Made by a program: the position numbers and the translations under genes. Below are positions 185 through 52,020 of a stretch of 52,020 nt of DNA, piece after piece; position 1 is the first letter of the stretch; each line of letters begins with the position of its first letter. The notes below the pieces were generated by a model. It made no database searches and was not told the DNA's origin. It worked only from the letters and a program-made list of their open reading frames with translations. Origin of the DNA: a virus; the IMG/VR virus record IMGVR_UViG_3300034375_010259, positions 1 through 52,020 of that record, one strand, 5' to 3'.

Positions 185-305
185 TAAGTACTTGAAATCA
201 CTACAAACGGCTACAATGTTGTACCCTAAGTCCTAACAAGCTATAATAAACAACAGTAATTATTTTTGAGCAAAATACACAATTCACGTAAGTACTTGAA
301 ATCAC
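185..305. repeat. 17-bp direct repeat pair upstream of first late gene
   Basis: TAAGTACTTGAAATCAC occurs at 185-201 and again at 289-305, 104 bp apart, on either side of the promoter at 219-247. The core AAGTACTT is palindromic. Such a pair could be an operator or a looping site. Function is inferred only from position. Confidence 0.6.
219..247 (+). promoter_or_regulatory. Sigma70-like promoter for the structural operon
   Basis: TTGTAC at 219-224 and a perfect TATAAT at 242-247 are separated by 17 bases. Transcription would start near 254, about 65 bases before the first gene with a good ribosome site. The -35 is weak (3/6), so an activator may help. Confidence 0.5.
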
Positions 306-37021: not shown

Positions 37022-37840
37022 CTACACCTCTAGTATCTCATAATTTTCAGATTTGTCAACTTCTTCTTTAATTATTTTTGTTGATTCCCATTTATTTTCT
37101 TTTTTGCAAGTTTCATAAATCTTCAAAGCTTTTCGGAATTTCCGATCTCCTTCGGATCTAGTATCCGCTGATAGCTTATAAATCTCGGTATTATTATCTC
37201 GTTTATCTAAAACCAAAAAGTAAAATTCAAATGGTTTACCATAATGTTTTTCAAACAATTTCAAATACATAGCCGAACTTATATCATAACCAAAACCATC
37301 AACCGTAATCTTAAAAGACTCTAAGTCTGAACCTTGCCCAGAAGTCTTTACATCTACTATATAGCCTTTTTCGACGTTTATATAGTCAGCTCGAACTTTC
37401 AAAGGTATTCCGTTATAGTCCATAAATAAAGAAGCTTCCGCCTTGCCGCCCTTTAAAAGCTCATTAGCTAATGACATTTTTCTAGCAGACGAAACCCACC
37501 GTTCGACTCTAACTCTCTGCGGCTTTGAAAGTAATATATAGCCCTGATTCTCTTCCTTAAAATCTTCCCAAGCCTTACCAATCTTTTTCCACCCGTCATA
37601 GAATCGAAATTCCTGATCAATCAAATGCGGCTCTAAAAGAAGAGAATGAGCATAAGTCCCTTCGTCAAAGTTGGCTTGAGTCCTGGGAGATGGTTCAGGT
37701 TTATTACCTAAAATCTTTTGTTCATAAAAATCTGCCGGATCTTTCAAAAGCATCTTCAAATTAGACGAACTTAAATGCTCCCGTTCCGCATGATAATCCT
37801 CATTCGATAAGTCTACAATACCGCTGTACTTTTTACTCAT
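37022..37840 (-). CDS. RecE-like PDDEXK exonuclease (DUF3799-type)
   Basis: A 272-residue protein. LSSSNLKMLLKDPADFYE and FDEGTYAHSLLLEP (with His65) are the N-terminal motifs of exonuclease VIII-like proteins. KVRADYI with Asp152 and YIVDVKTSG with Asp163 and Lys165 are the nuclease core. It would process DNA ends for recombination, probably with the nearby OB-like protein; no RecT or Erf-type annealing protein was recognised. Its start overlaps the helicase stop. Confidence 0.8.
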   Translation of the reverse strand: MSKKYSGIVDLSNEDYHAEREHLSSSNLKMLLKDPADFYEQKILGNKPEPSPRTQANFDEGTYAHSLLLEPHLIDQEFRFYDGWKKIGKAWEDFKEENQGYILLSKPQRVRVERWVSSARKMSLANELLKGGKAEASLFMDYNGIPLKVRADYINVEKGYIVDVKTSGQGSDLESFKITVDGFGYDISSAMYLKLFEKHYGKPFEFYFLVLDKRDNNTEIYKLSADTRSEGDRKFRKALKIYETCKKENKWESTKIIKEEVDKSENYEILEV

Positions 37841-39198
37841 TACTTTTTTCCTTTTGTTTTTTTCTCATGTATATGCAATCTCCACACCCTAACACCATCC
37901 TCCGTAGTATTTTTTACCGAGAAAACTTCAGGATATTTTTTCATCAATTCTAAAAACTTACCTCTACCGATTCTAAAGCTGTAGCCAAATTGCTCTTTAA
38001 CTTGATCAGCAGCCTCCCAAATCTCATAATTTTTACCACTATTAATCTCACAAAATCTAAATATGAACCAATCCTCCCATTCCTTTAAAGAGCTAGATCG
38101 GACTTCTTCAGTTCGTTTTGAAACAAAAACCTTTAACATTTCTTTTTCGTCTACATGATAATGCCATAAAAAAGAAGCCAAACTCTTTATATTCTCAGGA
38201 GCAAATAAGCTTTGAATCTCTTCCGGAGTAAAAACTGTAGTAAGCTTTTTATCAGTCAATTCAATAATACTAAATCGCCTATCATCAGCAGTAAGAGAAA
38301 TAGAATCCATGTTATTTGATGATATGTAAAAATTAGCATAATTCTTAATTTCCTTAGCATCTACACCTTTCTGCTCAATCTCTAAATAGTCATTAACCAC
38401 CAACTTTATCCGATCCTCTTCTTCTTTGTTTTTTATACTTATTTCATCACAATAAACCAATCTTTTGTTCGCTATCTGAGAATTAAAAGTCCCTTTAAAC
38501 ATTCTATCTCCGCCAGAGTAGAAATTAGAGGCTCCAAACAATTCTCTCATAATCCCACCTAGAACACCCTTTCCAATTCCTTGTTTGCCTATAGTAGCCA
38601 AGATACAATAATTACGACTTCTCAAGCCATTTGCCAGCCATTGAATTAGATAATTGTATGAAGTCTTATCCTTATTGACTAAATGCATGAAAAACCGACG
38701 GTACAAGTTTTGAAATTCTAACTCTTTTGGCACTTCCAGATTCCCTTCCGAAAAAAAACAATCCTGAAACCAGAAAGGCGGCTGGTACGTATTAAAACTA
38801 TAAGTATCGTCATCATTTTTTATTAACATCCCGTAATCATAAGGTCGATACTCATACTCGCACGTAATAATCTTATTTTTGATATTGCACCTACGATCAA
38901 AAAGCTCCACTAATCGAGATCTATGAATCTTAGAAACTTGTCGAGAAACCTTATCAAGAATAGAAACCGTATTATCCTCACCCAATTGATCACAAACCAA
39001 GTCGGATCTAACTAACTTCTGAATAAGCCCGTAATTCTTATAATCAGCTACGCAATCCTCAATAATGTCGGCAAGAACTTCCGAACTGACAGACTTATAC
39101 TGCGCTTCCAATCTTTTCTGAATTTGATTATGGTTATTTCCAAATCTAATCAAAGTTTCACATTCCGTCTTTATTTCTCTAATTTCCTTACTATCCAT
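37840..39198 (-). CDS. SF3-type replicative helicase (DUF5906-like)
   Basis: A 452-residue protein. GGGAG precedes the ATG at 39198 by 6 bases, so the upstream extension to 39243 is unlikely. Walker A GKQGIGKG (204-211), Walker B RLVYCDEI (about 246-253), sensor region NFYISSNN (289-296) with DDRRF behind it, typical of the superfamily 3 / DUF5906 helicases paired with AEP primases. The C-terminal 100 residues look like a winged-helix domain. It overlaps the primase gene by 8 bases. Confidence 0.8.
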   Translation of the reverse strand: MDSKEIREIKTECETLIRFGNNHNQIQKRLEAQYKSVSSEVLADIIEDCVADYKNYGLIQKLVRSDLVCDQLGEDNTVSILDKVSRQVSKIHRSRLVELFDRRCNIKNKIITCEYEYRPYDYGMLIKNDDDTYSFNTYQPPFWFQDCFFSEGNLEVPKELEFQNLYRRFFMHLVNKDKTSYNYLIQWLANGLRSRNYCILATIGKQGIGKGVLGGIMRELFGASNFYSGGDRMFKGTFNSQIANKRLVYCDEISIKNKEEEDRIKLVVNDYLEIEQKGVDAKEIKNYANFYISSNNMDSISLTADDRRFSIIELTDKKLTTVFTPEEIQSLFAPENIKSLASFLWHYHVDEKEMLKVFVSKRTEEVRSSSLKEWEDWFIFRFCEINSGKNYEIWEAADQVKEQFGYSFRIGRGKFLELMKKYPEVFSVKNTTEDGVRVWRLHIHEKKTKGKK

Positions 39199-40126
39199 TG
39201 ATTTCTCCCGCTCTGATCTTTTTATTATATCCATGATCAACACCGATACACAACTTATGCTCGGGATAACCTACACTAATCAACTTCGGAAAAACACGCT
39301 CCCATAGAACCTGTAAAAGGACTTCTTTACTTACTTTCGTATAATCTATACATTGGACCGTCAACTTAAAAATTTCTCGATACATGCCATCAGGACGTGC
39401 CCAATCGACATATCTGAGTCTATTTTTAAGAAACACAGGACAATGTTGCCAAAACTCTTCTACATCCTCAACCTGGACCTCTGCCTCAAACTTCTTAACA
39501 GGATTAAAAGAAATAGAAGGACATGAATCTAATATCAAATTAAACGCCTGAGCGGTCAACCGATCCCCCAAATAAACCAATTCCTGAATAACTCCATTTC
39601 TTTCAAATCCAGGAAATCTTGAAAGCCTTGAAGGATTCTGACAAGAGTAATCAACGAACTTCTCGCCTTTATCTCCATCTAGCAGCTCTGAAGCCTTTAA
39701 ATCGATTTTAGCAGCCAATCTACGCCACACATGCTTATAGTACTGAATACCGTCTAACGTGTGAACAGCGGCATTTAAAGGCTTCTCAAGGCTAACTATG
39801 GCATGATACGATTTACCGCCTGAATACACGATAGAAGTAAACGGAATGCCACATTCTTTAAAAATCCTTAATTGATCTTTTAAATCAATATTATCCATTT
39901 CAAATAAAAAATTCCTATAAGAGCAAACATTAATATCAGCTCGCGAAGGAAATCGACTATCTTTGTCCTGAACATAAGATTTGTACGGATCTAATGCATT
40001 TATGCAGAAAAACTCTGGAACGGCACTACCAATTTTCAATGCGTTACGAACCTTGGTCTGGTAAATACCCCCAAAAGTAGTGCAATTTCCCTGTACGAAC
40101 AAGGTACTCATAAACGTATTTTTCAT
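39191..40126 (-). CDS. AEP-type primase (primase-polymerase)
   Basis: A 311-residue protein with GGAGG 6 bases before its ATG. Motifs: NFLFEMDNI with Glu76 and Asp78 (metal ligands) and VYSGGKSYHAIV with His108 (nucleotide site), then PSRLSRFPGFERN. This is the archaeo-eukaryotic primase fold, not DnaG/TOPRIM or the T7 gp4 type. It is the first gene of the replication operon, followed by the helicase. Confidence 0.8.
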   Translation of the reverse strand: MKNTFMSTLFVQGNCTTFGGIYQTKVRNALKIGSAVPEFFCINALDPYKSYVQDKDSRFPSRADINVCSYRNFLFEMDNIDLKDQLRIFKECGIPFTSIVYSGGKSYHAIVSLEKPLNAAVHTLDGIQYYKHVWRRLAAKIDLKASELLDGDKGEKFVDYSCQNPSRLSRFPGFERNGVIQELVYLGDRLTAQAFNLILDSCPSISFNPVKKFEAEVQVEDVEEFWQHCPVFLKNRLRYVDWARPDGMYREIFKLTVQCIDYTKVSKEVLLQVLWERVFPKLISVGYPEHKLCIGVDHGYNKKIRAGEING

Positions 40127-40280
40127 AACTTACCTCCGAACCTTTTGTTCAAAATTTTTCTGTACGCACTTAAATTCATGAAATCACTAAGGAGTGCAAC
40201 TCGTACAGATTTTCTCTCAGTTCCCCCACGCATATTTTATTATTCCCTACCTTATATGTTTTTTTTTATTAGTCTTTTTC

Positions 40281-40297
40281 AGTACTCTTTAAGTACT
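40281..40297. promoter_or_regulatory. Inverted repeat, possible operator
   Basis: AGTACT-CTTTA-AGTACT, two palindromic half sites just downstream of the expected start of transcription. Could bind a repressor; AAGTACTT-type sites also occur in the 17-bp repeats at the left end. Confidence 0.4.
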
Positions 40298-40307
40298 TTA
40301 CTAGTCT

Positions 40308-40336
40308 ATACTAGTCTATATTATTTCTACAGTCAA
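40308..40336 (-). promoter_or_regulatory. Sigma70-like promoter of the replication operon
   Basis: On the minus strand, TTGACT (40336-40331), 17-base spacer and TAGTAT (40313-40308). Transcription would start near 40300 and run through primase, helicase, exonuclease and polymerase. Confidence 0.6.
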
Positions 40337-40440
40337 CTTAAGATTTCTCTGTACTTCTGTACTTATTAAGTTCTTCTTTAGTTTCAAGAACTTACACCTC
40401 AAGGGTGGGATATGATTCCTTGTACGTACAGGACCTTCTA

Positions 40441-42094: not shown

Positions 42095-42111
42095 GACCGT
42101 CAATAGCTTTT
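42095..42111 (-). promoter_or_regulatory. GACCGTCAATAGC element (copy 1)
   Basis: On the plus strand GACCGTCAATAGC, on the coding strand GCTATTGACGGTC, about 35 bases before the ATG of the gene at 42061. Copies recur at 43768, 49694, 49721, 49748 and 50220. See findings. Confidence 0.6.
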
Positions 42112-51283: not shown

Positions 51284-51352
51284 CTAAATACCAAGTTCTT
51301 CTTCAAAAATAATCATTAAAACAAAAACCACAATAAGTATAATCTTTATCAC
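51284..51352 (-). CDS. 22-residue membrane microprotein
   Basis: GGAG lies before a GTG at 51352 that overlaps the stop of the acidic gene (TAGTG). The peptide is one helix (MIKIILIVVFVLMIIF) with acidic end EEELGI, the same layout as the microprotein at 43815-43895. Confidence 0.5.
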   Translation of the reverse strand: MIKIILIVVFVLMIIFEEELGI

Positions 51353-51594
51353 TATTTCTCCTTTGCGCTATTAAGCATTTCTTCAAAATAAACATCCCAA
51401 CACATCTCATCAAAAAACTCTTCATTAAACCAATCTACATCATCATGATGAAAATACTCTCCACAATACTTATCATACTTAAACTCATCCCACAACTCGT
51501 TTAATCTATCATCGTTTTCAAACTGCCAAGCTTCAAAGTCTTTTTCCAAAACTTCAAATTCTTCTTTTGTCAGTTTCTTTAAAATTGAGTTCAT
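51352..51594 (-). CDS. Very acidic first early protein (Ocr-like candidate)
   Basis: An 80-residue protein in which 25 residues are D or E and only 9 are K or R, with many aromatic residues (DDVDWFNEEFFDEMCWDVYF). AAGGAG precedes the ATG and the best promoter of the window lies just upstream. This is the position and composition of T7 Ocr, which mimics DNA to block restriction. No sequence homology with Ocr is visible, so the role is inferred. Confidence 0.5.
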   Translation of the reverse strand: MNSILKKLTKEEFEVLEKDFEAWQFENDDRLNELWDEFKYDKYCGEYFHHDDVDWFNEEFFDEMCWDVYFEEMLNSAKEK

Positions 51595-51613
51595 TAAAAT
51601 TCTCCTTTTTAAA

Positions 51614-51642
51614 ATCTTAACATTTTATAAATTACTTGTCAA
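51614..51642 (-). promoter_or_regulatory. Strong early promoter
   Basis: On the minus strand a perfect TTGACA (51642-51637), 17-base spacer, TAAGAT (51619-51614) with an extended TG in front. It starts the acidic first early gene. Confidence 0.7.
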
Positions 51643-51719
51643 TTATTTTTAAAAAAGTTTTCCAGGAATTTTAGCCTTTTTTATTTGTTGGAGGGAAGAT
51701 TCAATAATTTTTGTTTATA

Positions 51720-51790
51720 AACAACTTTTATTAACTAAACAACTTTTATTGACTAAACAACTTTTATTGACTAAACAGAAATTATTGACG
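51720..51790. repeat. 18-bp iterons
   Basis: Three copies of ACAACTTTTATTGACTAA (the first with A for G) in direct repeat and a degenerate fourth that reads TTATTGACGAAAG. They share the core TATTGAC with the GCTATTGACGGTC spacers elsewhere. Confidence 0.9.
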
Positions 51791-51815
51791 AAAGTCGAAA
51801 AAAATTGCTTATAAT
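51785..51815 (+). promoter_or_regulatory. Rightward promoter candidate
   Basis: TTGACG (51785-51790) and a perfect TATAAT (51810-51815) with a long 19-base spacer. It points to the right end, where no gene remains, so it is meaningful only if this end joins position 1. Confidence 0.45.
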
Positions 51816-51886
51816 GATAACCATCAATATTTTTTATTTATGACCCAATAATTTTTGTCTTTTTTTTATCATAACTAATTAAAATA

Positions 51887-51916
51887 ATAGTAACATACTA
51901 TATAAATTGTTGTCAA
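51887..51916 (-). promoter_or_regulatory. Second leftward promoter candidate
   Basis: On the minus strand a perfect TTGACA (51916-51911), 18-base spacer, TACTAT (51892-51887) with TG upstream. Its transcript would cross the iterons before reaching the first early gene. Confidence 0.5.
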
Positions 51917-52020
51917 CTAGAATCTGTTTATCCAATAAATTCAGGGACTTATAACTTTTTTTTCTTTACTGTTTTTTTTCTTGACCGATTTTGATTAGAT
52001 TTAATTAAGAATTCAGCATT

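Follow-up and report, generated by a model that had tools for sequence, protein, structure and literature searches.

Sequence analysis suggests that the array of 18-bp repeats near the right end of this phage genome probably serves transcription, its elements being operators at which a regulator would act on the divergent promoters among which they lie, and that replication more likely starts in a noncoding cluster of CTGTAC motifs at 40127-40440 than at the array. The window, i.e. the whole stretch of DNA analysed, is an entire linear virus record of 52,020 bases without end repeats; a terminal repeat that would indicate circularity was sought and not found. Late genes (protease, TerL, portal, major capsid protein) occupy the + strand to ~33 kb. 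Between 51.6 and 34 kb the - strand carries the early and replication genes (PolA, exonuclease, SF3 helicase, AEP primase, M23 peptidase, C5 methylase). The first leftward gene (51352-51594, - strand) encodes an acidic protein of 80 aa with no family match, and the first rightward gene on the record (266-682, + strand) is TerS-like, with an ATG preceded by a ribosome-binding site at 320. Other samples hold fragments identical to the record, the right end being in none of those found, and a megablast search of the right 22 kb of the window against a phage collection returned no match.

The region at 51595-52020 is an AT-rich stretch with a direct-repeat array. An earlier note on this DNA described it as a gene-free block, and no gene is indeed found up to the end of the record; since the record is linear and without end repeats, the block is cut off there and may be incomplete. 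The three direct iterons plus a degenerate fourth that the note reported are real: four abutting direct copies of TAAACAACTTTTATTGAC run from 51718 to 51789 on the + strand with a period of 18, the first (51718-51735, TAAACAACTTTTATTAAC) with one mismatch, the second (51736-51753) and third (51754-51771) exact, and the fourth (51772-51789, TAAACAGAAATTATTGAC) degenerate, its TTGAC starting the -35 box of a rightward promoter. Two further sites had been missed, namely an inverted copy at 51700-51717, reading TAAACAAAAATTATTGAA on the minus strand, and a sixth, related and slightly longer site, TAAACAGATTCTAGTTGAC, at 51912-51930 on the minus strand, at whose end the -35 box of the distal leftward promoter lies.

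Chance is excluded as the source of the array by dinucleotide shuffling: the tandem-segment score of the region is 40, the maximum in 300 shuffles is 15, and none of the 300 reaches the array. Matches to the element with up to three mismatches number 3 against 0.18 expected. All four occurrences of TAAACA-N5..9-TTGAC in the 52-kb genome fall within 51595-52020 (three in the array and one at 51912-51930), and a genome-wide PWM scan found no further good copies of the element, the next best scoring 13.3 bits as against at least 23.6 for five sites. The exact 18-mer has four matches in IMG/VR, two on copies of one phage (L002/L005) that carries a gene resembling an Xre-type repressor and two in open, coding-like sequence (L003/L004); these were set aside because a rough calculation gives about six matches by chance. 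A degenerate double-iteron pattern searched in IMG/VR gave no match.

The promoters proposed earlier are likewise present. A rightward promoter, TTGACG-19-TATAAT with a long spacer, lies at 51785-51815 on the + strand, and two leftward promoters lie on the - strand, the proximal one (TTGACA-17-TAAGAT) at 51614-51642 and the distal one (TTGACA-18-TACTAT) at 51887-51916; the region thus holds three TTGAC-type promoters against 0.17 expected (p ~0.001, shuffle test). The predicted +1 of the distal leftward promoter matches the leftward transcript start that had been placed near 51880. Two of these promoters have their -35 box at the end of the same 18-19 nt element: the rightward one, where the element is the last of the four tandem direct copies, and the distal leftward one, where it stands as a single copy. 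As read from the sequence, this placement of one element on two opposing -35 boxes is operator geometry. In phage lambda, OR/OL is the divergent operator/promoter region of the phage switch. Our region resembles such switches in carrying several copies of one element over the -35 boxes of two opposing promoters and, in the relatives, in having an adjacent gene for a putative DNA-binding protein; it differs in that the copies are four abutting direct repeats with an 18-bp period rather than spaced dyads, in that no repressor family or integrase match was found among the genes scanned, and in that the record lacks a regulator gene.

Relatives of the phage were collected by a major capsid protein search, which gave at least 80 IMG/VR loci at 52-100% identity, and by a TerS alignment search, which yielded 35 loci from around the late-operon start. 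Where the gap is internal to a relative's contig (as in G006 and G020, among others), the divergent layout is that of the window, which bears out the description of the region as one of divergent control, with opposing promoters in a single gap. Their divergent gaps are mostly 41-280 nt long (634 in L108) and are enriched for TTGAC and TATAAT, none of 300 shuffles reaching the counts. TAAACA[AG] is only slightly enriched in them (p ~0.02-0.05), and the operator sequence is therefore not clearly conserved. The array itself is absent from the equivalent gap of all 20 relatives tested, the best score there being at most 12 as compared with 40 in the window. The region had been called a probable origin, with the lack of these iterons in relatives named beforehand as a result that would speak against it; the call is thus unsupported, and correcting it matters since an origin placed at 51.6-52.0 kb would have misdirected experiment.

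In 29 of the 30 relatives with enough sequence (29 of the 35 TerS loci), a small HTH protein is encoded by the gene that comes first rightward of the divergent gap; the remaining TerS loci, except L122, start too near TerS for this gene to be judged. Some relatives have further short genes between the HTH gene and TerS. The HTH gene is absent from all stop-to-stop frames of the window. Because both ends of the record fall in the divergent gap, it is simplest to suppose that the record breaks off just short of the gene, which would lie beyond position 52020; its loss from this phage is the less simple alternative. The modelled HTH protein has a mean pLDDT of 79, and its fold matches are all insignificant, several of them being to HTH proteins, so that we infer DNA binding rather than observe it. 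The protein is the natural and likeliest candidate to bind the array. The earlier surmise that a small protein binds the iterons fits this gene of the relatives, which in the phage of the record would apparently lie just past the end of the sequence.

We propose that the block would hold the divergent early and late promoters of a podovirus-like phage, with the 18-bp elements as operator sites for a phage regulator. Bound regulator would block or recruit RNA polymerase and so determine how active the leftward early operon is relative to the rightward TerS/structural operon; with tandem copies, binding could be cooperative and control graded. The small HTH protein would be the likeliest regulator, its gene lying just beyond 52020 in the phage of the record; as the product of the gene that comes first rightward of the gap it would be autoregulatory. 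Replication, in the same proposal, would more likely begin at 40127-40440, where the SF3 helicase would act as initiator on the CTGTAC cluster.

That cluster fills a noncoding gap of 314 nt directly upstream of the AEP primase gene (39191-40126, - strand) and is a rival candidate for the origin. It holds five CTGTAC motifs where 0.13 are expected, more densely packed than anywhere else in the genome; the motif was derived from this gap together with relative G005 and then tested in other genomes. In G020 the motif reaches its genome-wide peak, with nine copies, in the gap that precedes the primase operon; the genome-wide peak of G027, with six copies, begins 13 nt upstream of the primase gene and lies partly in small reading frames. 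Other relatives carry other repeats at the corresponding place: AGCCGCAG repeats lie directly 5' of the primase or primase-helicase gene in G021, and an eight-copy array of AAAATCTGTTTACC (reverse complement GGTAAACAGATTTT), which could be an origin, lies directly 5' of the primase-SF3 helicase gene in G024 (L148 4524-4820), a genome with a 123-base end repeat. Related repeats in G005 and G015 (TGTACCAG, TGTGCCAG) are in the early region, away from the primase. G006 was left out of this comparison since it is without the primase stretch, and large repeat scores within repeat-protein genes of G005, G015, G020 and G027 were set aside.

It is doubtful that, as stated earlier, no recognisable initiator is encoded among the replication genes. 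The SF3 (DUF5906) helicase (37840-39243, - strand; DUF5906 1.6e-21) matches the C-terminal region of NrS-1 PrimPol (6k9c, E 1.5e-17) and SaPI5 primase-helicase structures, and its model shows the winged-helix order of elements at the C-terminal end (37870-38076, - strand; model residues 374-442), a predicted candidate origin-binding domain. An initiator candidate is thus recognisable, as this ending is like those of the origin binders SaPI Rep, in which the C-terminal domain recognises the iterons (PMC7581432), and P4 alpha, in which a winged helix binds the origin repeats (PMC4234260). Judging from the model, the helicase is a candidate initiator at 40127-40440. An AEP primase, an SF3 helicase predicted to end in a winged helix and short repeats adjoining their genes together resemble the iteron origins used by the SF3 helicase initiators SaPI Rep, phage P4 alpha and SCCmec Cch2 (PMC7581432, PMC4234260). 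That description suits 40127-40440 but not the array, which lies 11.5 kb away. The SaPI repeats are downstream of rep (PMC7581432), those at 40127-40440 upstream of the primase gene. IMG/VR contains at least 80 relatives from this uncultured phage group, for which the helicase and the 314-nt gap make a candidate pair of initiator and origin.

Strand composition bears on how the genome is copied rather than where copying starts. Third-codon GC skew, in + strand letters, is -0.46 in + genes and -0.40 in - genes, with A exceeding T in both. In 2.5-kb bins the skew is negative throughout the window (21/21) and throughout G006 (20/20), G020 (23/23), G021 (21/21) and G027 (22/22; the last two oriented alike), and in all five the third-codon bias is independent of gene direction; a single-sign third-codon bias was not seen in G005, G015 or G024. 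No switch of sign, as from a bidirectional origin, occurs in the window or in the G020 circle. Because the whole genome has this one-way asymmetry, skew cannot place the origin, and with every bin of the same sign it was dropped as a locator. G020 has a 127-base end repeat, which sits in a repeat-protein gene, and reads as a complete circle, around which a bias of one sign suggests one-way replication. The bias would fit forks that always run leftward, whatever their start point.

A broader reading, which we hold tentatively and as less probable than not, would extend primase-side origins to the whole clade, with a repeat sequence that turns over between species (CTGTAC, AGCCGCAG, AAAATCTGTTTACC) and is read by the SF3 winged helix, and with a circle copied one way, giving the single-sign bias; the array at 51.7 kb would then be a separate operator or a second, species-specific origin.

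It is rather unlikely that the array is itself an iteron origin to which a phage protein binds and which the leftward transcript from ~51880 primes or opens. Direct repeats in an AT-rich block crossed by a transcript would suit such an origin, and leftward forks starting at the array would agree with the one-way strand bias; against this stand the 20 equivalent gaps in which no array was found, and the distance of at least 11.5 kb to the primase and helicase genes, the repeat clusters of G020, G021, G024 and G027 each adjoining the primase gene of their own genome. The element moreover coincides with two -35 boxes, its 18-bp period is by our own reasoning not a whole number of helical turns, and the genes adjoining the array gave no match to a replication family. 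Its resemblance to the G024 array beside the primase-helicase gene counts in favour: the G024 motif and the site at 51912-51930 have TAAACAGATT.TA in common, a likeness that is suggestive only, since the joining pattern was drawn from both arrays.

The NrS-1 phage primase-polymerase has the template recognition sequence TTTGGTTA (PMC8718748), and the inverted copy of our array reads TTTGTTTA, which matches it at 7 of 8 positions; the other copies match at 6 of 8 at best, and in the window, unlike in NrS-1, primase and helicase are separate proteins. The array was rejected as an NrS-1 site because it contains no exact TTTGGTTA, the exact sites of the window being at 561, 26610, 28313 and 37287.

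Iterons that overlap promoters are common in plasmid Rep systems. We consider it improbable, more so than an origin pure and simple, that the array is such a combined promoter-origin region, where an initiator on the repeats also represses the promoters, as in autoregulated plasmid Rep systems; the facts that favour it are those given for operators and for an iteron origin, and it is opposed by the want of an adjacent initiator gene and by the separate primase-side cluster. It is equally improbable that the repeats arose by recent tandem duplication of the -35 region and have no binding protein of their own, the extra copies of TTGAC and a UP-like A-tract simply strengthening or decorating the rightward promoter: the copies are near-identical, abutting, end in TTGAC and occur only in the phage of the record, but the inverted copy and the separate site on the opposite promoter would be left unexplained.

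Several other elements were observed. Repeats of TTGACGGTC were ruled out as -35 boxes, having no good -10 at the right distance; one copy is ~30 nt from a start codon. A leader motif, GCTATTGACGGTCA (near-palindrome TGACSGTCA), occurs on the minus strand 5' of early genes at 42107, 43780, 49706, 49733, 49760 and 50232, often adjoining AAGCTT-type arrays of 8, 16 or 27 bp, and no family like it was found in the relatives checked. TAAGTACTTGAAATCAC is present twice 5' of TerS in the window (185-210 and 289-314) and once directly 5' of TerS in two relatives (L130 6958; L132 828), and is a possible candidate for a late control element. In G020 (L137 10826-13345) the TerL homology is interrupted by ~1 kb inside one open reading frame, in an intein-like manner. 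A capsid-protein relative (51%) lies within a Rhodobacteraceae metagenome-assembled genome (L162, PIVL01000026.1), a weak hint at the hosts of this phage group.
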